From assembly GCF_900187395.1 (NCBI RefSeq), contig NZ_FYEZ01000003.1, positions 1 through 64,000 on the forward strand: DNA of 64,000 nucleotides, given 5' to 3'. The stretch is from Kytococcus aerolatus (lineage in GTDB: Bacteria > Actinomycetota > Actinomycetes > Actinomycetales > Dermatophilaceae). Positions within the stretch are counted from its first letter, which is position 1. Every line of letters begins with the position of its first letter. Below, in pieces: positions 50,725 through 62,122 of the stretch. The notes under the pieces were generated by a model. It saw nothing but the letters and a program-made list of their open reading frames with translations, was not told the DNA's origin and ran no database searches. Position numbers and translations under genes: made by a program.

Positions 50725-52215
50725 TCACCGCTCGAGCTCCTCGCTGGCCGCGTCCCGCTCCTCCCGGGCCGCGTCGCGCCCCGCCCGGCGCTCGATGATT
50801 CCGTCCACCTCGGCCCGGTTCACCGCCTGCCGCTCGGCGTCCTCCACGGCATGGCGCATCCGGTCGTGCCGCTGGGCCAGGTCGTTGCGCAGGCCGTCCA
50901 GCAGCTCGGCGTCGGTAGCGCTCTCCGCGGCGAGGGCGTCGACCACGGCGAGCGCGCGCTCCTCCTGGGCGTCGACCTCGCGGCGCAGGTCGGTGGCCAG
51001 CTCCCGCGCACCGGCGGTGAGGGTCTCCACCTGGCCCTCCACCCCGGCAGCCGCGTCCGCACCGGCCTCCCAACGCAGCTCCTCGAGCAGCTCGCGCTGG
51101 TCGGCGAGCAGGTTCGCCAGCTCGTCCCCCGTCCCCACCGAGGTGTACTCACCGCGCCCCGCCTCGGCGACGTCCTCCAGCAGCTGCCAGTCCCCCTCGG
51201 CGAGCCCGAAGCCGATGACGTGGACGTCCGGCCCCCCCGGGCCGCGCGAGAGCTCCGTGGCCGCCGCCACCGGGTCGCCCCCGCAGGTCTCCAGGCCGTC
51301 GGTGACGACGTAGACGACCGAGCGCCCCGCGGTGGGCAGGTCCTTCCCCGCGGCCTCGAGGCCACGGGCCAGCGGCGTCCACCCGGTGGGCTCCACCCTG
51401 GCGAGCTCGCCGGCGAGGTCCAGCTGCCGTGCCCTCCCCTCGGCCACCCGTTGGGTGGACCGGCAGGAGTCGGCCCTGCCGGAGCGCGAGGCGTCGCCGC
51501 CCTGCCCGTAGGTGCGGACGCTCAGCGTGGCGTCCCGGGGCAGGCCGGCCGCGAACCCGTCGAGGGCCTGCCGGGCCGCCTCCATCCGGGTCCGACCCCC
51601 ACCGGCCGACTCCCGCATGGACCCGCTGGCGTCGAGCACCACCGCCACGTGGAGCGGCGGCAGGTCGAGCTCCCCCACCTCGGGGGCCGCAACGCCCTCC
51701 CCGGCACCGAGGAGATCGACCATGGGTCCGGAGAGATCCCCCTGCACCTGGGCCATCACCGCGTCCTCCCACTCCCGCGGACCGGGCTCCGCGGCCACCA
51801 CCGCCGCCGCGGCCCGCTCGGCGTCGAGATCCTTCCCGGAGCGCTCCCCCGAGGCGAGCAGGAAGGTGGACTCCACGAGGTGGTCGGCCTCCAGGCCGGC
51901 CGGAGTCTCCACCGGTTGCGGTGCGGCGGGCCCGGGCGCCACCCCGCCGGAGGACGCGGCGGAGGTGCCCGCCCCCGGGCCCGCCGCACCGTCCTGCGAC
52001 GCCCCGGACCCCGGCGTGCTGCTGACCGGAGCCGACGGAGCGGTGTCCTGCGTGGGCCCGGCCTCGGCCGCGCACCCGGCCAGGGCGAGGGCCAGCGGCA
52101 CCGCCAGGAGACGGGGGACCCTCCGCCCCCGCTGGCGCGGGCCACCATCACCGGTGGTGGACGGGGCGACGGGCTGGGCAGGGGCGGGCCGGACGAGGGC
52201 GGGCTGGGTCTTCAC
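50725..52215 (-). CDS. Lipoprotein with von Willebrand factor A domain
   Basis: A 496-residue secreted protein. The N-terminus is 35 cytoplasmic residues before the hydrophobic stretch and lipobox LAGC (Cys about 48), unusually long; a shorter start was not found. A Ser/Thr/Pro/Gly linker follows, then a VWA domain with MIDAS DASGSM, and TDGLETCGGDP toward its end, and a C-terminal coiled-coil of about 140 residues (LAAESATDAELLDGLR ... REERDAASEELER). VWA domains bind protein or metal-linked ligands. GTG at 52215 after GGGAGAA. Divergent from the NFGAH operon. Confidence 0.82.
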   Translation of the reverse strand: MKTQPALVRPAPAQPVAPSTTGDGGPRQRGRRVPRLLAVPLALALAGCAAEAGPTQDTAPSAPVSSTPGSGASQDGAAGPGAGTSAASSGGVAPGPAAPQPVETPAGLEADHLVESTFLLASGERSGKDLDAERAAAAVVAAEPGPREWEDAVMAQVQGDLSGPMVDLLGAGEGVAAPEVGELDLPPLHVAVVLDASGSMRESAGGGRTRMEAARQALDGFAAGLPRDATLSVRTYGQGGDASRSGRADSCRSTQRVAEGRARQLDLAGELARVEPTGWTPLARGLEAAGKDLPTAGRSVVYVVTDGLETCGGDPVAAATELSRGPGGPDVHVIGFGLAEGDWQLLEDVAEAGRGEYTSVGTGDELANLLADQRELLEELRWEAGADAAAGVEGQVETLTAGARELATDLRREVDAQEERALAVVDALAAESATDAELLDGLRNDLAQRHDRMRHAVEDAERQAVNRAEVDGIIERRAGRDAAREERDAASEELER

Positions 52216-52286
52216 GAGTTCTCCCTGGGCAGTGGTCGGTGGCTGTCCGCCGACCGTAGGGAGATCCGGATCACAGGTGCCCCGAG

Positions 52287-52338
52287 TTGTCCACAGGCCA
52301 CGTGGCCGATCCCACAGAACCGCAGGATTCCGCGGAAT
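52287..52338. promoter_or_regulatory. Palindrome and DnaA-box-like motif in the VWA/NFGAH divergent promoter
   Basis: ATTCCGCGGAAT (52327-52338) is a perfect 12-bp palindrome, and TTGTCCACA (52287-52295) equals an actinobacterial DnaA box. Both lie in the 206-bp gap 52216-52421, otherwise empty. The palindrome is a candidate operator; a single DnaA box is not an origin. Confidence 0.4.
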
Positions 52339-52421
52339 AACACAGCACACAGTCCTCCTGGAGCACCATCTCGGGGCTTGCCGGCGTGCCGCTCGCCCTC
52401 CACCCGGGTAGACAGGGAGGC

Positions 52422-53216
52422 ATGACTGACAGGCCCACGCACGAGTTCCGCGGCGACTGGTCCGAGCAGCTGGTCGCCACCGCCATCCACGGCGGCCACG
52501 ACCTCCGCCCGCAGGTGGCCGAGGCGATGGTGCTCGCCGAGGACGTCCGGCGCCGTGAGGAGGACCCGTACACCGACGTGATCGGCGCCGGCACCCCCAC
52601 CCAGGTGCTGGTGCACCGTTCCCGCTTCGAGATGGACCTCAACCGGCCCCGCGAGTCGGCGATCTACCGCCGCCCCGAGGATGCCTGGGACCTGGAGATC
52701 TGGCGCGACACCGAGCTGGCCCCCGAGCTCGTCGAGGAGAGCCTGGCGCAGTACGACGCCTTCTACGCCGAGCTCGGCGAGCAGCTGGACCGGCTCGCCG
52801 CCCGCGGTCCCTTCGTGGTCTACGACGTGCACTCCTACAACCACCGCCGCGAGGGCGCCGACGCCGAGCCGGCCCCTGCCGACGAGAACCCCGAGGTGAA
52901 CCTCGGCACCGGCACCGTCGACGCCCGCTGGCGCAGCGTGGTGGACGCCTTCACCCGCTCCCTGGCGGCCCAGGAGGTGGGTGGGCACCAGCTCGACGTG
53001 CGCGAGAACGTGAAGTTCGAGGGGCGCGCGCTCTCCTGGTTCGTCCACGAGCGCTACCCCGAGACCGGCGTCTGCCTCGCCCTGGAGTTCAAGAAGACCT
53101 TCATGGACGAGTGGACCGACACCCCGGACCACGCGCACCTCGAGCAGCTGCAGCGCGCGCTGACCGCCACCCACGAGCCGGTGCTGGCGGCCCTGCAGGA
53201 GGTGACCCACCGGTGA
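52422..53216 (+). CDS. N-formylglutamate amidohydrolase-family protein
   Basis: A 264-residue zinc hydrolase-fold protein related to HutG (NFGAH). Seen: IHGGHDLRP as the metal-binding opening, RSRFEMDLNRPRE with the substrate Arg/Asn motif, VYDVHSYNHRREG containing the second metal His, and LEFKKTFMDEW as the C-terminal Glu ligand. In histidine breakdown this removes formate from N-formylglutamate, but no hut genes are present here. It heads an overlapping three-gene operon with a QEGLA metallopeptidase and an ATP-grasp ligase, so a role in a peptide-like pathway is more likely (inference). Confidence 0.85.
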   Translation: MTDRPTHEFRGDWSEQLVATAIHGGHDLRPQVAEAMVLAEDVRRREEDPYTDVIGAGTPTQVLVHRSRFEMDLNRPRESAIYRRPEDAWDLEIWRDTELAPELVEESLAQYDAFYAELGEQLDRLAARGPFVVYDVHSYNHRREGADAEPAPADENPEVNLGTGTVDARWRSVVDAFTRSLAAQEVGGHQLDVRENVKFEGRALSWFVHERYPETGVCLALEFKKTFMDEWTDTPDHAHLEQLQRALTATHEPVLAALQEVTHR

Positions 53217-54403
53217 GCACCGAACCCACCGCCCAGGAGGCCGCCCAGACGCTGGCCCCTGCGGACCTCGCGGTCGACCACACCCTCTCCCTGCTGTCCG
53301 GGACGCTGCGCTTCCTGCTCGGCATCACCCCGGTGAACGCCGACGAGGAGCGCGAGCGCTTCCTGGCCGGGGACACCGACGAGCCGGCCTTCGTCTACCG
53401 CGACCTGGAGACCGACCCGGCCGTCCTGGCCGCGCAGATCGACCAGATCCCGGTGGACGACCTGCAGGACGAGACCCTGCACCACCTGCTGGGGGCCAAG
53501 CACCGCGAGCTGGCCCTGCAGGTGCAGATGCTGGCCAGCCGGGGCGGCACCGAGTTCCGGGAGCTGTCGGCCGAGCTCTACGGCGCCGTCGACCCCGAGC
53601 TGCGCTCCGCCGCCGACGGGCTCGTGGCCCGGCTGGACGCCCGCTCGAGCAGGTCCGGCCGGGTCGACGCCGCGACCTTCCTGGCCGCCGCGCAGGAGGA
53701 GATCGACCGCTACCGCGAGATCGACGCCGACGTGAGCATCCACGCCGAGGTCCGCGACGACGTCTCCGGCGTGCTCGTCGAGGGCGACACCCTGCTCATC
53801 AGCGACCGGGCCAGCATCCCGGAGAACCGTGTGCGGCCGCTGATCATGCACGAGGTCGGCACCCACCTGGTCACCCAGGTGAACGGCGTCGGCCAGCCGC
53901 TGAAGACCCTCGGCACGGGTCTGGCCGGCTACGACGAGACCCAGGAGGGGCTGGCCGTGCTCGGCGAGATCGCCGTCGGCGGACTGACCCCCTTCCGGCT
54001 GCGCCAGCTCGCGCTGCGCGTGCTCACCGTGGACCGGATGCTCTCCGGCGCCAGCTTCCGCGAGTCCTTCGACGCGATGCGGGAGATCGGCGTGCCCGAG
54101 CGCCCGGCCTTCACCACGACGATGCGCGTCTACCGCGCCGGGGGCCACACCAAGGACGCCATGTACCTGCGGGGACTGCTCGACATCCTCGCCCACCTGC
54201 GCGAGGGCGGCCGGCTGGACCGGCTCTTCCTCGGCAAGTTCGCCCTGCACGACCTGCCGCACGTCCGGGAGCTCGACGAACGCGGCCTGCTGCGGCCACC
54301 CCGCCTGACCTCCCACTGGCTGCTCGACCCCGGCGCGACCGAGCGCATCGAGCACGCCGCCCGCACCAACGACCTGACCACCCTCACCCAGGAGTCCGCA
54401 TGA
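53213..54403 (+). CDS. QEGLA-motif (DUF1704/MATCAP-superfamily) metallopeptidase-like protein
   Basis: A 396-residue member of the group named flavohemoglobin expression-modulating QEGLA proteins. HEVGTH at 213-218 (HExxxH) supplies zinc ligands and the general base, and QEGLA at 244-248 the third ligand Glu245. Related eukaryotic enzymes are tyrosine carboxypeptidases of tubulin (MATCAP/vasohibin-like activity). N-terminal helices of about 130 residues precede the active site. GTG overlaps the NFGAH stop; its own stop overlaps the ATP-grasp start. Confidence 0.85.
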   Translation: MSTEPTAQEAAQTLAPADLAVDHTLSLLSGTLRFLLGITPVNADEERERFLAGDTDEPAFVYRDLETDPAVLAAQIDQIPVDDLQDETLHHLLGAKHRELALQVQMLASRGGTEFRELSAELYGAVDPELRSAADGLVARLDARSSRSGRVDAATFLAAAQEEIDRYREIDADVSIHAEVRDDVSGVLVEGDTLLISDRASIPENRVRPLIMHEVGTHLVTQVNGVGQPLKTLGTGLAGYDETQEGLAVLGEIAVGGLTPFRLRQLALRVLTVDRMLSGASFRESFDAMREIGVPERPAFTTTMRVYRAGGHTKDAMYLRGLLDILAHLREGGRLDRLFLGKFALHDLPHVRELDERGLLRPPRLTSHWLLDPGATERIEHAARTNDLTTLTQESA

Positions 54404-55443
54404 AGATCGCCTTCGTCGTCAACGACATCGCCACCGAGCGGGCCGTCTACACGACCGTCCGTCTGGCCATGCAGGCCACCAACATGGGCCACGAGGCCCA
54501 CCTGCTCGGCATGGGGGACTTCGGCTACGAGCCGGACGGCACCCTGACGGCCACCGCCAGCAGCGGCAAGGACAAGGGCTACCGCTCGCTGGAGCGCTAT
54601 CTCGCCGACGTCCAGAAGCCGGAGAGCCGCGAGCACATCGCCGTCAGCGAGTTCGACGTCGTCATGCTCCGTGCCGACCCGGCCGACGAGGGCGAGACCG
54701 GGGCCTGGGCGAACAACGCCGGCATCGCCTTCGGTGAGCTCATCGCCATGCAGGGCGTGCTCGTGGTGAACGACCCGCGCTCGCTGAGCCGTGCCCTGTC
54801 CAAGGCCTACTTCCAGCACTTCCCGGAGGCCGTGCGCCCCAAGACACTCATCTCCCGCGACGGGGAGCGCATCGAGGAGTTCGTCGAGGAGCTCGGCGGC
54901 AAGGCCGTGCTCAAGCCCCTCCAGGGCTCCGGCGGCTCCGGCGTCTTCCTCGTCAACGAGGAGGAGTCGCCGAACCTCAGCCAGATCATCGAGGCCGTCT
55001 CCCGCGACGGCTACGTGGTGGCCCAGGAGTTCCTGCCGGAGGCCAAGGACGGTGACGTCCGCATGTTCGTCGTGAACGGCCAGCCGCTCACCGTCGACGG
55101 CCGGGTGGCCGCCTTCCGCCGCCGCAGCGGGGGCAGCGACATCCGCTCCAACATGTCCGCCGGCGGCAAGGCCGAGAAGGTCGAGATCACCGACACGATG
55201 CGGGAGATGGTGGACGCCGTCCGCCCCAAGCTCATCGCCGACGGGATGTTCATGGTGGGTCTGGACATCGTGGGCGACAAGCTCATGGAGGTGAACGTGT
55301 TCAGCCCCGGCGGCCTGGGCACCGCCGAGTCCCTGTACGGCGTCGACTTCGCCCCGGCCGTCATCGAGAACCTCGAGCACAAGGTCTCGATGCGCCGCCA
55401 CTACGGCCGCCAGCTGCCGAACACGGCGGTGGCCACGCTCTGA
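54400..55443 (+). CDS. ATP-grasp ligase, glutathione synthetase (GshB)-like
   Basis: A 347-residue ATP-grasp protein with the GshB layout: N-terminal FVVNDIATERAVYTTVRLAMQA, a central VVMLRADPADEG, then the ATP-binding domain with AVLKPLQGSGGSGVFLV, VVAQEFLPEAKDGDVRMFVVNG, and metal motif MEVNVFSPGG. The Asp/Arg loop and EVN fit peptide-bond or carboxylate-amine ligation. Actinobacteria normally use mycothiol and lack gshA here, so true glutathione synthesis is unlikely. Its neighbours suggest it joins an amino acid or peptide later trimmed by the QEGLA enzyme. Confidence 0.86.
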   Translation: MKIAFVVNDIATERAVYTTVRLAMQATNMGHEAHLLGMGDFGYEPDGTLTATASSGKDKGYRSLERYLADVQKPESREHIAVSEFDVVMLRADPADEGETGAWANNAGIAFGELIAMQGVLVVNDPRSLSRALSKAYFQHFPEAVRPKTLISRDGERIEEFVEELGGKAVLKPLQGSGGSGVFLVNEEESPNLSQIIEAVSRDGYVVAQEFLPEAKDGDVRMFVVNGQPLTVDGRVAAFRRRSGGSDIRSNMSAGGKAEKVEITDTMREMVDAVRPKLIADGMFMVGLDIVGDKLMEVNVFSPGGLGTAESLYGVDFAPAVIENLEHKVSMRRHYGRQLPNTAVATL

Positions 55444-55522: not shown

Positions 55523-55945
55523 ATGACCTGCGAGAACGCCGCCTCCTGCCACCCCTCCCGCCGCCAGGTCGTGACCGGCGCGGGGGCCGCTGCCGCCTTC
55601 GCCGTCCCGGGCCTCTCCGCCTGCGGGGCGGGCGACGACGGCGCCGCGGCCCCGAGCGGCCCGCCGATCACCGTCCAGGCCGCCGACGTGCCGGTCGGCG
55701 GTGGCCTCATCGAGGGCGAGTACGTGGTGACCCAGCCGGAGGAGGGCACCTACAAGGCGTTCAGCTCGACCTGCACCCACCAGGGCTGCAAGGTCACCCG
55801 GGTGGAGTCCGAGCAGATCGTCTGCGACTGCCACGGCAGCTACTTCTCCATGACCGACGGGTCGGTGCAGACCGGCCCGGCCCGCGACGCGCTGCCCGAG
55901 GTGGGCGTGAAGGACGCCGACGGGGAGCTCACCGTCGGCGGCTGA
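55523..55945 (+). CDS. Secreted Rieske [2Fe-2S] protein (Tat substrate)
   Basis: A 140-residue exported Rieske protein. The N-terminus SRRQVVTGAGAAAAFAVPG is a Tat signal, followed by a lipobox-like LSAC. Cluster ligands C84, H86 (CTHQGC) and C101, H104 (CDCHGSYF), with C89/C103 placed for the structural disulfide, as in cytochrome bc1 Rieske domains. Fold-complete but without a membrane anchor helix or bc1 neighbours, so it is a stand-alone electron carrier at the envelope. Convergent with the Mrp operon. Confidence 0.88.
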   Translation: MTCENAASCHPSRRQVVTGAGAAAAFAVPGLSACGAGDDGAAAPSGPPITVQAADVPVGGGLIEGEYVVTQPEEGTYKAFSSTCTHQGCKVTRVESEQIVCDCHGSYFSMTDGSVQTGPARDALPEVGVKDADGELTVGG

Positions 55946-55965: not shown

Positions 55966-56346
55966 TCAGGCGCTGTGCGGACCCCCGTCGCTCCCCTCGT
56001 CGCCCAGGCCCGACCGGCGCTCCCAGTCCCGGGCGACCTCCTTGCTGCCGCACGTGTGCCCCGTGCGCAGGGCGGCACGACCGATCATCTGGGCGGCCAC
56101 CGGCACGGTGACCATGTGGAAGAGCGCCACCAGCGCCAGCCCGCCCCAGACCGCAGGCTCCCGGACCCGCAGGGCGATCCCGAGGACCACGAGGACGACG
56201 CCCAGCACCTGCGGCTTGCTGCTGGCGTGCATGCGGGTGAAGAGGTCCGGGAAGCGGACCAGCCCCACCGCCGCCGACAGGCACAGCACCGCCCCGGCCA
56301 GCAGCAGGGCCAGGCCCAGCAGGTCCGCCAGCTGCCCGCCGGTCAT
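55966..56346 (-). CDS. mnhG: Mrp antiporter subunit G
   Basis: A 126-residue subunit with three membrane helices: LLGLALLLAGAVLCLSAAVGLV, then RFPDLFTRMHASSKPQVLG, the signature of MnhG/PhaG, and GVVLVVLGIALRV. A hydrophilic tail of about 35 residues is longer than in most homologues. Last gene of the operon; starts in the mnhF stop (ATGA). Confidence 0.93.
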   Translation of the reverse strand: MTGGQLADLLGLALLLAGAVLCLSAAVGLVRFPDLFTRMHASSKPQVLGVVLVVLGIALRVREPAVWGGLALVALFHMVTVPVAAQMIGRAALRTGHTCGSKEVARDWERRSGLGDEGSDGGPHSA

Positions 56347-56639
56347 CGCCGCACCTCGATCGTCGTGGTCGTCGTGTCCTCCACCCGGGTGAAGCGGGCC
56401 ACGGTCACCGCGCCCACGAAGCCCACCAGGGAGAGCGAGAGCAGCACCGGCACGCCCGTGGTCTGCCGCGCGACCGCTGCCTGCACGCCGATCGCGCAGA
56501 TCACGATCCCCACGAGCACCTCGAGGGCCACCACCCGGTCGAGCACCGAGGGGCCGGTCACGATGCAGTAGACCACCACCCCGGCCGACAGGGCCAGGAG
56601 GGCACCGACCAGCCACACCACCACGGTCACCACGCTCAT
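56343..56639 (-). CDS. mnhF: Mrp antiporter subunit F
   Basis: A 98-residue subunit with three helices and the MnhF landmark GPSVLDRVVALEVLVGI (Asp and Arg of the second helix), ending in a Thr/Glu tail. Overlaps both neighbours. Confidence 0.93.
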   Translation of the reverse strand: MSVVTVVVWLVGALLALSAGVVVYCIVTGPSVLDRVVALEVLVGIVICAIGVQAAVARQTTGVPVLLSLSLVGFVGAVTVARFTRVEDTTTTTIEVRR

Positions 56640-57268
56640 CGCGTCTCCTCCTTCACGGTGTCGAGGGGGGTGCTCCCCACGGCCTCGGACTGCAGCATGC
56701 TGTCGTCGTCCAGCGGACCCCCCGGCCCGGAGGCCAGGGTGCGCTCGGCGTCCCGGTCGAAGGCCCGCAGGATGCGCTCCTCCTGACGCAGCACCTTCTG
56801 CCGGAAGTCCGCCTGCTCCTCGGCGGTGTAGACGTCCAGCGCATGGAGCAGGAGCACGCTGCGGGTCCGGTCGATGTCGACCACCACGCTGCCCGGCACC
56901 AGCGTGGTGAACCCTGCCGTGGTCGTCACGAAGAGCTCCTCGGTGCTGCGCAGCGGGACCTCGAAGAGGCTCCCCCCGTGGCGCTCGCGGGAGAACAGGG
57001 CCATCCACAGCACCTGGGCGCTGGCGACCACGAGATCCCGCAGGAAGAGCAGCAGCAGGCGGAGCAGGGCGGTCGGCCGGAGGGTGACCGCGACCTGCAG
57101 GCGCGGCATCGGGAAGACCAGGACGAGCACCAGCGCCAGGAGGAGCCCGGCGGCCAGGTCCACCCACCCGAAGGACCCCCACAGGAGCATCCACACGAGG
57201 GTCAACCAGACGACGGACCACGCGCTCACGCGGCTCCGGACGGTGTCCCAGGGGCTCGGTCGGCTCAT
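56636..57268 (-). CDS. mnhE: Mrp antiporter subunit E
   Basis: A 210-residue MnhE: two N-terminal helices (WLTLVWMLLWGSFGWVDL, LLLALVLVLVFPM), then a soluble region with LFVTTTAGFTTLVPGSVVVDID, the conserved loop of the family, and an acidic C-terminal tail longer than usual. Overlaps mnhD and mnhF. Confidence 0.92.
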   Translation of the reverse strand: MSRPSPWDTVRSRVSAWSVVWLTLVWMLLWGSFGWVDLAAGLLLALVLVLVFPMPRLQVAVTLRPTALLRLLLLFLRDLVVASAQVLWMALFSRERHGGSLFEVPLRSTEELFVTTTAGFTTLVPGSVVVDIDRTRSVLLLHALDVYTAEEQADFRQKVLRQEERILRAFDRDAERTLASGPGGPLDDDSMLQSEAVGSTPLDTVKEETR

Positions 57269-58830
57269 CGCGGCACCCCCTCGGGGAAGACCGCGTCCAC
57301 GTAGGTCTCCTGGCCGATGAGATCCGCGGCGGCCCGGTCGGTGTAGGCGAAGAGCGGCCCGGCCACCACCGTGATCAGCAGCCCGACGACCACCATGAGC
57401 ACGGTCGGCACGACCACGCCCGGGGTCATCGCCTCGGCGGCGTACTCGTCCGAGGGGCCCTCCTCCTCGCGCTCGGTGCCCCCCTCGTCGAAGGGGCCGC
57501 GCCAGAAGGCCCGCGCCCACACCCGGGTGAGGGCGTAGAGGGTGAGCAGCGAGGTGACCGCCGACCCGGCGACCAGGAGCAGCGAGAGCCAGTCACCGGC
57601 CGCGACACCGGCCCGCATGAGGCCGATCTTGCCGATGAAGCCCGAGAAGGGAGGCACGCCCGCCAGGTTGAGGGCGGGCACGAAGAACAGGGCCGCGAGG
57701 AGCGGCGAACCCGCCGCGAGACGGTTCAGACGCATCGAGGAGGTCGTGCCGCCCCGGCGCTCGATGAGGCCCGCCACGAGGAAGAGCGCGGACTGGATGA
57801 GGATGTGGTGGACCACGTAGAAGATCGCCGCGCTGAGCCCCAGCACCCCACCGACGGCGATGCCGAAGATCATGTAGCCGATGTGGCTCACGAGCGTGAA
57901 GGACAGGAGCCGCTTGATGTCGTCCTGCACCAGCGCGCCCAGGATGCCGGTGACCATCGTGAGCAGGGCCGCCCCGAGCAGCATCGGGCTGACGCGGTCG
58001 TCCGGGAAGAGCAGCACCTCGGTGCGGATGATCGCGTAGACACCGACCTTCGTGAGCAGACCCGCGAAGACGGCCGTCACCGATGCCGGGGCGGTCGGGT
58101 AGGACTCCGGCAGCCAGCCGGCCATCGGGAAGATCGCGGCCTTCACCCCGAAGCCGAGCAGCAGCACCAGCTCGATCGTCAGCCGCGTGCCGGGGTCGAT
58201 CTCCTGCATCCGGGCCCCCAGATGGGCGAGGTTCACGGTGCCCGCCGCGGCGTAGACCAGGGCGATGCCGGTGAGGAAGACCAGCGAGGAGAGCAGGCTG
58301 ACCGCCACGTAGGTGACACCGGCGCGCACCCGGGGCCGGGTGCCCCCGAGGGTGAGCAGCACGAACGAGGCGGCCAGCAGCATCTCGAAGCCGACGTAGA
58401 GGTGGAAGAGGTCACCGGAGAGGAAGGTCGTGGACACCCCGGCCGAGAGCACCAGGAGGGTGGGGTGGAAGACCGGCAGCGGGGACTGGCCGTCGCTCTC
58501 GTCGTCGAAGGAGGAGCGGCCCTCCCCGATCGAGTAGAGCACCACCCCGAGGGTGACGATCGCGCTCACCAGGAGCATGAGCGCACCGAGCCGGTCGGCC
58601 ACGAGCACGATGCCCTCGTGCGGCATCCACCCACCGACGTTGACGACCTGGGGGCCGTGGCGGTCGCTCACCCCGACGAGCAGGGCGGCCACGACGACGG
58701 TCGTGGCCAGGGCGCTCACGGTGAACACGCGCTGCAGGGTGGTCCGGCGGGAGGCCACCAGCGTCGCCCCGGCCGCGATGAGCGGGACCACCACCGGCAG
58801 CGGCACGAGGTGGGCGGCGGTAAAGCTCAT
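57265..58830 (-). CDS. mnhD: Mrp antiporter subunit D (Na+/H+, NADH dehydrogenase ND4-like)
   Basis: A 521-residue proton-translocating subunit with about fourteen helices, homologous to complex I NuoM/ND4. Seen: LFHLYVGFEMLLAASF with the key Glu on helix 5, and PMAGWLPESYPTAPASVTAVFAGLLTKVGVY-like core in helices 7-8 with Lys (here GWLPESYPTAPASV and LLTKVGVYAI). C-terminus has a charged loop before the last helix. Operon member, overlapping mnhC and mnhE. Confidence 0.95.
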   Translation of the reverse strand: MSFTAAHLVPLPVVVPLIAAGATLVASRRTTLQRVFTVSALATTVVVAALLVGVSDRHGPQVVNVGGWMPHEGIVLVADRLGALMLLVSAIVTLGVVLYSIGEGRSSFDDESDGQSPLPVFHPTLLVLSAGVSTTFLSGDLFHLYVGFEMLLAASFVLLTLGGTRPRVRAGVTYVAVSLLSSLVFLTGIALVYAAAGTVNLAHLGARMQEIDPGTRLTIELVLLLGFGVKAAIFPMAGWLPESYPTAPASVTAVFAGLLTKVGVYAIIRTEVLLFPDDRVSPMLLGAALLTMVTGILGALVQDDIKRLLSFTLVSHIGYMIFGIAVGGVLGLSAAIFYVVHHILIQSALFLVAGLIERRGGTTSSMRLNRLAAGSPLLAALFFVPALNLAGVPPFSGFIGKIGLMRAGVAAGDWLSLLLVAGSAVTSLLTLYALTRVWARAFWRGPFDEGGTEREEEGPSDEYAAEAMTPGVVVPTVLMVVVGLLITVVAGPLFAYTDRAAADLIGQETYVDAVFPEGVPR

Positions 58831-59258
58831 CGGCCCTCCTCCTCGGGGTGCGCGGTGTCGGTGGAGGCCTCGCTGAAGACCTCGTCGGGATAGTCGTTGT
58901 CCACGGAACGGCGCGAGATGCGGAGGTTCTCCGGGTCGGCCTCCACGAGGTCGCTGCGGGAGATCTGCCACGAGCGGTGCGCCAGGGCCAGCACGAAGGC
59001 GCTCATGGCCAGACTGATGACGATCGCGGTGAGCACCATCGCCTGCGGGAGCGGATCGGCCATGGTCGAGGGGTCGTTCTCCCCGCTGATCGGGGGACGC
59101 CCCGCCGGCCCGCCGGCGACGAGGAACAGGATGTTCACACCGTTGCCGAAGAGCAGCATGCCGAAGAGCACGCGGACCAGGCTCCGGGAGAGGAAGAGGT
59201 AGACGCCGCAGGCCGACAGCACGCCGGCCACCAGGCAGAGGGTCAGGTTCGGGATCAT
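58827..59258 (-). CDS. mnhC: Mrp antiporter subunit C (NuoK-like)
   Basis: A 143-residue MnhC with three helices homologous to NuoK; FGMLLFGNGVNILFLVAGG and QAMVLTAIVISLAMSAFVLAL carry the family features. A cytoplasmic acidic tail follows. Overlaps mnhA and mnhD. Confidence 0.95.
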   Translation of the reverse strand: MIPNLTLCLVAGVLSACGVYLFLSRSLVRVLFGMLLFGNGVNILFLVAGGPAGRPPISGENDPSTMADPLPQAMVLTAIVISLAMSAFVLALAHRSWQISRSDLVEADPENLRISRRSVDNDYPDEVFSEASTDTAHPEEEGR

Positions 59259-62122
59259 GCGCGGGCCTCCCGCTCCACGTCGATCTCCCGGTCCAGGGAG
59301 GCCCCCAGCGAGGTGAGGATGTCCAGCAGCAGACCGACCACCACCAGGTAGACGCCGACGTCGAAGACGACCGAGGTGACCACGTGCACCTCACCGAGGG
59401 GTCCCAGCGGCAGGTCGTGGACCCAGGTCTGCAGGACCTCGCCCCCGACCAGCATGGAGAACAGCCCGGTGCCGGCCGAGAGGAACAGGCCCAGTCCGAG
59501 GAGCACACCGGGGACCACCGGCAGGGCGGCCTGCATCTCCTCGCGGCCCCCGGCCAGGTAGCGGACGAAGATCGCCAGGCCGGCCACCAGGCCGGCGGCG
59601 AAGCCACCGCCGGGCGCGTTGTGCCCGGCGAGGAGCAGGTAGACCGACCAGACCATGATCGTGTGGAAGAGCAGGCGGGTCACCACCTCGAGCATCAGCG
59701 AGCGGCGACGCTGCGGCATGGCGGTCGGGGCGGGGATCCAGCGGGACCAGTCCTCGGCGGCCAGCGCGTGCCGACGCCGCTGCCCCAGCACCCTCCGGAT
59801 GTGCTGGACGTTGCTGCTGGTGCGCTCGGCGTGCAGGAAGACCAGGCTGGCCACACCGGTGGCAGCCACGAGCACCACGGAGAGCTCACCCATCGTGTCC
59901 CAGGCGCGGATGTCCACGAGGATCACGTTGACGACGTTGTGCCCACCCCCGAACTCGTAGGCGCTCTCCGCCATGCCGACGGACGCCGGAGGGGCCACGC
60001 GCGCCCCGGAGGCGACGATGCCCAGACCGGTGACGGTGGCGCCGACCAGCACCCCCAGCGCAGCCCGCAGGCGACGGTCGTGCCGGGTGGACTCGTCCAC
60101 GAACCGGGTCGGCAGGCGGCGCAGGACGAGCACGAACACCGCGATGGAGACCGTCTCCACCAGGATCTGGGTGAGGGCCAGGTCGGGTGCGCCGTGCAGC
60201 AGGAAGAGCAGGGCCACGCCGTACCCGGTGACACCCAGCAGGAAGACACCGCGCAGACGACGCCGCGACCGGGCGGCCGCCACGGCGGCCACGGCCACGG
60301 CCACGGCGACCGGGAACTGGGCGGGGACGTCCCACGGCCGGACCTGCTCCGGCCAGGCCGCGTGGACCAGCAGGGAGCCACCGGGCAGCAGCACGAGCAT
60401 GCCGAAGACGAGGGCGAGGTTGAGCTCCAGCGAACCACGCTGCAGGAAGCCGGTGACCTCCGTGGCCCCCCTTTCGATCTGGCGGATCATCCGCCGGTAG
60501 ACATCCTGGGCGGTGGGCAGGTCCGGCGCCGCCACCTGCACGGCGGTCACCGTTCGCCGCCCCAGGACGAGCAGGGCACCGAGCGTGATGGTCAGGACGG
60601 TGAGGAGGAGCGGCATCGTCAGGCCGTGCCACAGCCCCAGGTGGACCGGGTGCCGGCTGGCCGGCCAGGTGCCTCCGGCGGCCGCCAGGGCCGGCTCGAG
60701 GCGTCCGGCGAGGGGTGCGGCCACCAGCCCGGCGAGGGCCAGCGCACCGGGCACGGCCACGAGCAGCGGCGGGACCTGCTTGACCGGCGTGCGCTGGCCG
60801 ACCTCCACCTCGGGGTCCCGGGAGCCCAGGCCGACCACGAGGAAGCGGCCGCTGTAGGCCAGGGTCAGGGCCGAGCCGAGCACCGCGACGGCCAGCACGG
60901 CCCACTGCAGGGGGTCGCCCCCGTGGGGTCCGCCGTGCCAGAGCGCCCCGTAGACCGCCTCCTTGGCCACGAAGCCGAGGAAGGGCGGGATCCCGGCCAT
61001 GGAGGCCAGCGCCAGCAGGCAGGTCCACCAGGTGACGGGCAGGGAGTGGCGCAGGCCGCGCAGGAGGCGCACGTCGCGGGTGCCGGTGGCCTGGTCGATG
61101 ACGCCGACCGCCATGAAGAGCGCGGACTTGAACAGGGCGTGGGAGAGCAGCAGCGTCAGCCCGGCCAGGGCAGCGTCCGCCGTCCCCAGACCGAGCACGA
61201 GCACGAGGAAGCCGAGCTGGCTCACCGTCCCGTAGGCCAGGAGGAGCTTGAGATCGTACTGGCGCAGGGCCCGCCACGCGCCGAGCAGCATCGTGGTGCC
61301 ACCGAGGACCAGGACGGTCCAGCGCCAGACGGGGAGCTCGGCGAAGGTCGGCGCCAGGCGGGCGACGAGGTAGACACCGGCCTTCACCATGGCGGCGGAG
61401 TGCAGGAAGGCGCTCACCGGGGTGGGGGCCGCCATCGCGCCGGGCAGCCAGAAGTGGAAGGGGACGATCGCCGACTTGCTCAGTGCCCCGACGAGGACGA
61501 GGAGCACCCCGCCGGTGGTCACCGGACCGCTCGGCGACGCGGCGAGGATGTCCGAGAGGCGCGTCGAGCCCACCTCGTGCGCCAGCAGCAGCAGGCCCAC
61601 GAGCATGGCCAGACCGCCGAAGGTCGTGACGATCAGCGCCTGGCTGGCCGCCACCCGGCTGGCCTTGGCGCGATAGGTGTGCGCCACGAGCAGGTAGGAC
61701 AGGACGGTGGTGATCTCCCAGAAGATGTAGAGCATCAGCACGTCGTCGCTGAGGACCAGCCCGACCATCGCCCCGGCGAAGACCGTGAGCGAGGCCGCGA
61801 AGGCACCCAGCCCCGGGTGCCCGCGGCGGAAGTAGGCCGAGCAGTAGAGCAGCACCAGGGTGCCCACCACGCCGACGACGACCGTCATCAACCAGCCGAG
61901 CGCGTCCAGCCGGAAGGACAGGTCCATCTGCAGGGTGGGGACCCAGCGGACGTCCTCGGTGGGTGGGGTGGCGGACAGCGCGGCGCGGGTCCGGGTCAGC
62001 GCCCAGCCGGCCGTGGCGGCCGGGGCCAGGGCGAGAGGCCAGAAGGCCCGGGGGCCCAGGAGACGGACCAGGAGGGGCGCGATCGCTCCGGCCACGAGAT
62101 GCAGCGTGACCAGCGCGATCAT
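59255..62122 (-). CDS. mnhA: Mrp antiporter subunit A fused to subunit B
   Basis: A 955-residue membrane protein, with an NuoL/ND5-like N-part (helix-5 WEITTVLSYLLVAH with Glu; HFWLPGAMAAPTPVSAFLHSAAMVKAGVYL), the MnhA-specific C-extension, and then a MnhB-like domain from about residue 810 (LFHTIMVWSVYLLLAGHNAPGGGFAAGLVAGLAI), the hallmark of MnhB. Fusion explains why no separate mnhB lies between this and mnhC. Start ATG at 62122; an upstream Arg-rich extension is ignored. The complex expels Na+ in exchange for H+. Confidence 0.95.
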   Translation of the reverse strand: MIALVTLHLVAGAIAPLLVRLLGPRAFWPLALAPAATAGWALTRTRAALSATPPTEDVRWVPTLQMDLSFRLDALGWLMTVVVGVVGTLVLLYCSAYFRRGHPGLGAFAASLTVFAGAMVGLVLSDDVLMLYIFWEITTVLSYLLVAHTYRAKASRVAASQALIVTTFGGLAMLVGLLLLAHEVGSTRLSDILAASPSGPVTTGGVLLVLVGALSKSAIVPFHFWLPGAMAAPTPVSAFLHSAAMVKAGVYLVARLAPTFAELPVWRWTVLVLGGTTMLLGAWRALRQYDLKLLLAYGTVSQLGFLVLVLGLGTADAALAGLTLLLSHALFKSALFMAVGVIDQATGTRDVRLLRGLRHSLPVTWWTCLLALASMAGIPPFLGFVAKEAVYGALWHGGPHGGDPLQWAVLAVAVLGSALTLAYSGRFLVVGLGSRDPEVEVGQRTPVKQVPPLLVAVPGALALAGLVAAPLAGRLEPALAAAGGTWPASRHPVHLGLWHGLTMPLLLTVLTITLGALLVLGRRTVTAVQVAAPDLPTAQDVYRRMIRQIERGATEVTGFLQRGSLELNLALVFGMLVLLPGGSLLVHAAWPEQVRPWDVPAQFPVAVAVAVAAVAAARSRRRLRGVFLLGVTGYGVALLFLLHGAPDLALTQILVETVSIAVFVLVLRRLPTRFVDESTRHDRRLRAALGVLVGATVTGLGIVASGARVAPPASVGMAESAYEFGGGHNVVNVILVDIRAWDTMGELSVVLVAATGVASLVFLHAERTSSNVQHIRRVLGQRRRHALAAEDWSRWIPAPTAMPQRRRSLMLEVVTRLLFHTIMVWSVYLLLAGHNAPGGGFAAGLVAGLAIFVRYLAGGREEMQAALPVVPGVLLGLGLFLSAGTGLFSMLVGGEVLQTWVHDLPLGPLGEVHVVTSVVFDVGVYLVVVGLLLDILTSLGASLDREIDVEREARA

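Follow-up and report, generated by a model that had tools for sequence, protein, structure and literature searches.

What might an ATP-grasp ligase and two putative zinc hydrolases do together when a bacterium encodes them in overlapping genes? The question is raised by a cassette of Kytococcus aerolatus in the 64,000-nucleotide stretch of DNA that we analyzed (the window, positions 1 to 64,000 of contig NZ_FYEZ01000003.1). Open reading frames and profile searches place three genes in tandem on the forward strand at 52422 to 55443, encoding an enzyme with the N-formylglutamate amidohydrolase (NFGAH) fold, a QEGLA peptidase, and an ATP-grasp ligase, in this order. The original prediction, which was of three genes with 4-bp overlaps coding for an NFGAH homologue, an HExxxH/QEGLA peptidase, and a GshB-like ligase, proved correct in every detail that we checked against the sequence and the profiles.

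Three overlapping genes for two putative hydrolases and a putative ligase

Gene 1 starts with the ATG at 52422, which has GGGAGG a short way upstream, and stops at 53216 (264 residues). Gene 2 (53213 to 54403, 396 residues) starts with GTG, while gene 3 (54400 to 55443, 347 residues) starts with ATG. As read from the sequence, start and stop codons share 4 bp at both junctions, as GTGA (53213 to 53216) between genes 1 and 2 and as ATGA (54400 to 54403) between genes 2 and 3, and a purine-rich ribosome-binding stretch lies shortly upstream of all three starts. Around the cassette, the window holds a large open reading frame on the reverse strand (50725 to 52350) that is VWA-like (DASGSM), likely encodes a lipoprotein, and diverges from the cassette across a very short gap. 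Just 3' of gene 3 and on the same strand is a gene for a small Rieske [2Fe-2S] protein (55523 to 55945), which elsewhere is not kept beside the cassette. It is followed on the reverse strand by genes that, judged by sequence, resemble those for subunits G, F, E, and D of Mrp/Mnh Na+/H+ antiporters (55966 to 59607).

The product of gene 1 belongs to PF05013 (FGase; 77.6 bits, cut-off 28.9, E = 2e-21) and is the only PF05013 protein in the host genome. It is not HutG. The protein has no match in NCBIfam, including none to TIGR02017 (HutG) at an E value of 0.01, and a rhizobial homologue scores 29.8 where the TIGR02017 cut-off is 278.75. A sequence search of the PDB returned no credible match, and its solved relatives came from fold comparison alone. 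The AlphaFold model (pLDDT 94) is closest to two NFGAH structures, 2q7s (Z 24.3) and 2odf (Z 22.9), followed by poly-gamma-glutamate hydrolases of phage and Bacillus (3a9l and 5onj, Z about 12) and by M14 carboxypeptidases (Z about 10 to 12). These NFGAHs and poly-gamma-glutamate hydrolases have the same fold as the gene 1 protein, at about 20% sequence identity or less; unlike them, the gene 1 protein is tied to a peptidase and a ligase in the loci that we saw. Seven residues (H23, R68, D72, N74, R75, D135, and H137) are identical in all 79 aligned homologues, and H23, the DLNR motif, and the DxHS motif are predicted to form the zinc- and carboxylate-binding sites of the superfamily.

The product of gene 2 is a homologue of the MATCAP/TMCP zinc carboxypeptidases (PF08014, formerly DUF1704/QEGLA; 275 bits, cut-off 27, E = 9e-82). 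It falls below the cut-off of TIGR02421, the QEGLA family named flavohemoglobin expression-modulating (303.8 versus 338.65 bits), which the peptidase of a rhizobial triad exceeds with 373.6. The catalytic motifs are intact. HExxxH is found at H213-E214-V-G-T-H218 and QEGLA at Q244 to A248. All 84 homologues in the alignment have H213, E214, H218, Q244, E245, G246, and L247, and 83 of them have A248. The model (pLDDT 93) superimposes on human MATCAP (7z5g/7z6s) with a Z score of 25.1 (rmsd 2.9, 290 residues, 23% identity), the next matches being DUF885 proteins and M32 carboxypeptidases. Besides the fold, which marks the family together with the HExxxH and EGL zinc-site motifs, the two proteins have HExGTH, EGLA, and KDxxYLxG in common, and HExG(T/V)H, the EGLA glutamate, and KDxxYLxG are essentially invariant across the 84 homologues. 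Since a shared fold is no proof of a shared reaction, the bacterial enzyme is best described as a putative carboxypeptidase. Its human relatives remove the C-terminal tyrosine and then a glutamate from tubulin tails, and deglutamylate tubulin (PMC10499314). The rhizobial QEGLA proteins (L009:5236-5950 and others) carry an N-terminal extension of ~240 residues that has no Pfam match, and one actinobacterial peptidase (L100) has a similar start.

The product of gene 3 is a GshB-like ATP-grasp carboxylate-amine ligase of the PRK12458 subfamily (NF009110; 456 bits, cut-off 408, E = 7e-137). Its closest solved relative in a PDB sequence search is Escherichia coli GshB (1gsa, E = 1.8e-35), and alpha-L-glutamate ligases come second. 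In 16 of 16 members, the ATP/Mg and arginine positions of GshB are conserved (R86, K125, K160, R210, R225, R233, N235, D273, E281, and N283), whereas its substrate loop T288-C289-I290-R291-E292 (TCIRE) is replaced by GG(L)xx. Because this replacement is found in all members, the ligase probably acts on a substrate that differs from that of GshB.

Linkage and distribution of the cassette

When 84,980 species genomes were scanned with a peptidase alignment, 412 relatives emerged, of which we kept the closest 80. In 78 of these 80 loci, the amidohydrolase gene lies directly upstream and the ligase gene directly downstream, in the same order and on the same strand, a near-universal linkage that is biased to one subtype since the loci are the nearest relatives of a single query. 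Of the two exceptions, one is cut off by the start of its contig, which falls within the cassette (L055), and the other is a decayed cassette of Tetrasphaera australiensis whose frames are broken (L091:8190-10060). A second decayed cassette was seen in Phyllobacterium zundukense (L107:1-3700), and relatives of both species have intact copies. The first junction also permits a 4-bp overlap in 66 of the 78 loci, and the second in 58. In Tessaracoccus sp. SD287, the NFGAH-fold enzyme and the peptidase are fused in one frame of 662 residues (L087:8185-10173). The pairwise distances of any one of the three proteins correlate with those of the others (r = 0.79 to 0.89), to which shared ancestry contributes.

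For a search of the neighborhoods, open reading frames of at least 110 residues around the 80 loci were clustered, shorter frames lying outside this search, and clusters produced by reading the three cassette genes in an opposite or shifted frame were left out of the count. Apart from the three genes, every family was limited to at most 8 of the 28 genus labels. Since no other family recurs, the module consists of the three genes alone, set in varied neighborhoods. The same triad is found on plasmids and megaplasmids of the rhizobia Shinella, Sinorhizobium, Mesorhizobium, and Aminobacter, where the peptidase has about 40% identity, one copy being that on pSymB of S. meliloti 1021; in one S. 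medicae strain, it is interrupted by group II intron genes. A contig labelled as an Acidobacteria metagenome-assembled genome (L019) encodes a cassette peptidase 63% identical to that of the window, which is as close as Ornithinimicrobium, and this contig is probably mis-binned.

The peptidase is patchily distributed, being present in 6 of 58 close relatives of the host and in 9 of 246 genomes sampled evenly across the phylum. The even sample contained four ligases of the PRK12458 class (E < 1e-90), all adjoining a peptidase gene; the amidohydrolase is present at two of these loci (the window and G236) and absent from the other two (G088 and G102). The peptidase and ligase also occur without the amidohydrolase in one genome of the family sample (G015), so that three lineages lack the amidohydrolase beside this pair. 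Ligases of the two-gene version (L011, L099, and L101) read NAESPGG (NAESAGG in L099) in place of NVFSPGG. In five of the nine peptidase-containing genomes of the even sample, the peptidase is divergent and neither partner adjoins it, two of the loci being clipped by contig or stretch ends. Such divergent, solitary QEGLA peptidases (L096 to L098 and L102 to L106) occur in some actinobacteria and in gammaproteobacteria (Pseudoalteromonas and Legionella); the one in Legionella adelaidensis lies near dapA and murI. Plasmids of Ensifer adhaerens encode a solitary PRK12458-type ligase with no peptidase or amidohydrolase within 5 kb (L113:5001-6047 and L114). Since the amidohydrolase is absent in some lineages and ligases mostly lie beside a peptidase, the peptidase and ligase are the core and the amidohydrolase is accessory, by a linkage that is strong but not absolute.

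Candidate functions

We propose, at a probability of roughly 0.4, that the cassette is a translationally coupled module that spends ATP to extend a peptide or metabolite at its carboxyl end and reverses this step by trimming. The ligase would convert a carboxylate to an acyl phosphate and link this to an amino acid through the amine of the latter, and the MATCAP-like zinc carboxypeptidase would take the C-terminal residue off again, as MATCAP/TMCP enzymes do on tubulin tails. The NFGAH-fold enzyme would hydrolyze a related (gamma-)glutamyl or N-acyl-glutamate amide, and might thereby dispose of a by-product or side branch or act in proofreading. Proteins, peptides, and small molecules are all candidate acceptors. 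Glutamate is our favored guess for the residue that would be added, by family resemblance: each of the three enzymes has relatives with known activities that involve glutamate.

A one-way pathway to a small peptide or amide, in which the ligase would form the bond while the peptidase and amidohydrolase strip protecting or carrier residues, is a strong rival, even if we consider it somewhat unlikely. A compact cassette of one ligase and two hydrolases that is found on megaplasmids and is as patchy as accessory metabolism would suit such a pathway, but genes for transporters, regulators, tailoring steps, or precursor peptides are not conserved beside it (open reading frames of at least 110 residues, 28 genus labels), and the amidohydrolase is dispensed with in three lineages. 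The original prediction had likewise cast the genes as a build-and-trim pathway for a small peptide or amide. Building and trimming fits one ligase accompanied by two enzymes with carboxypeptidases and gamma-glutamyl hydrolases as structural neighbors. A free small molecule would be only one possible product, since the genes could equally well modify the carboxyl end of a protein or peptide in a reversible manner. The amidohydrolase, moreover, is not core everywhere.

Metabolite repair or scavenging, with two hydrolases degrading unwanted glutamyl or N-acyl peptides and the ligase re-forming a useful one, appears distinctly improbable. It would account for the presence of two hydrolases of different zinc-enzyme folds per ligase and for the resemblance of the amidohydrolase to enzymes that free glutamate from amides. 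Yet a ligase that spends ATP is unexpected in a pure scavenging unit, and no uptake system recurs nearby among open reading frames of at least 110 residues in the 28 genus labels.

We rejected glutathione synthesis, or that of a glutathione analogue, as very unlikely because a gshA-type gene is lacking in the host and the substrate loop of the ligase is altered in every member. This reading follows the automatic name of PRK12458, glutathione synthetase, and draws on the high score of gene 3 against that model and on the ten conserved GshB residues. Against it, gene 3 stays below the cut-offs of both glutathione synthetase equivalogs (194.5 versus 299.05 for TIGR01380 and 209.1 versus 272 for PRK05246), and the entire host genome contains neither of the two glutamate-cysteine ligase families, PF04107 and PF04262, with which the pathway would begin. 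As had been predicted, no gshA or hut gene lies in the stretch examined around the cassette.

That gene 1 might perform the HutG step in an operon for histidine breakdown is the least credible reading, and we rejected it: although gene 1 encodes the sole PF05013 protein of a host that has hutH and hutU, it is not a HutG equivalog, the two hut genes lie 90 to 105 kb away on the same contig (L110:8502-10208 and L112:6786-8888, separated by about 13 kb and lacking a PF05013 gene in their vicinity), and no hut gene recurs beside the cassette (open reading frames of at least 110 residues, 80 loci, 28 genus labels). Genes for the third and fourth Hut steps were not located, but an arginase-family gene of the host (G000:C3:257149) could encode a formiminoglutamase. 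A constant association of homologous cassettes with histidine catabolism or glutathione synthesis, which the original prediction had named as evidence against itself, was not seen across the surveyed loci.

Known ligase–protease pairs and what the cassette may mean

The cycle of ligation and trimming that we favor has partial precedents. In the RimK/RimB (RimABK) system of Pseudomonas, an ATP-grasp ligase adds glutamates that a protease takes off again, and the two enzymes are encoded in one operon and sometimes in one polypeptide (PMC11957791). However, RimB is a retropepsin-like aspartic protease, whereas the cassette combines a MATCAP-type zincin with an NFGAH-fold hydrolase, and the GshB-like product of gene 3 does not reach the cut-off of the RimK family (TIGR00768, 93.3 versus 143.4). 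The Rlo operon of P. aeruginosa also pairs a protease with a cytosolic ATP-grasp protein, but its protease is secreted and retropepsin-like and is accompanied by a transglutaminase-like membrane protein (PMC12239564).

A further parallel is found in eukaryotes. MATCAP/TMCP enzymes were identified in animals only recently. Tubulin tyrosine ligase is not GshB-like, and its gene and that of MATCAP are unlinked. In that system, which acts on tubulin, an ATP-grasp ligase is opposed by a metallocarboxypeptidase of the MATCAP family (TMCP1 and TMCP2), which shares the HExxxH and EGL motifs and the fold with the gene 2 protein (PMC10499314). The cassette may therefore be a bacterial counterpart of tubulin tyrosination and detyrosination, in which a ligase and a MATCAP-family peptidase would run a C-terminal amino acid cycle on a bacterial protein or peptide from one mobile cassette, an idea that we regard as doubtful.

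Each of the three families has a name, and the idea of an ATP-grasp ligase working with a peptidase is known. The combination seems to be functionally undescribed. The searchable literature held no functional account of it (a 2009 amidoligase survey, which possibly lists the neighborhood, was outside this search), no paper on DUF1704, QEGLA, COG3930, COG3931, or PRK12458 in this role, and none on gshB2 of S. meliloti. The automatic label glutathione synthetase is misleading for organisms that apparently lack glutathione synthesis. For the peptidase family, the pairing of a ligase with a MATCAP relative in 78 of the 80 closest loci offers a direct route to the natural job of the bacterial enzymes, since the product of the ligase should be the substrate of the peptidase. 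If the parallel with tubulin were true, bacteria would be the likely source of the ligase/MATCAP logic.
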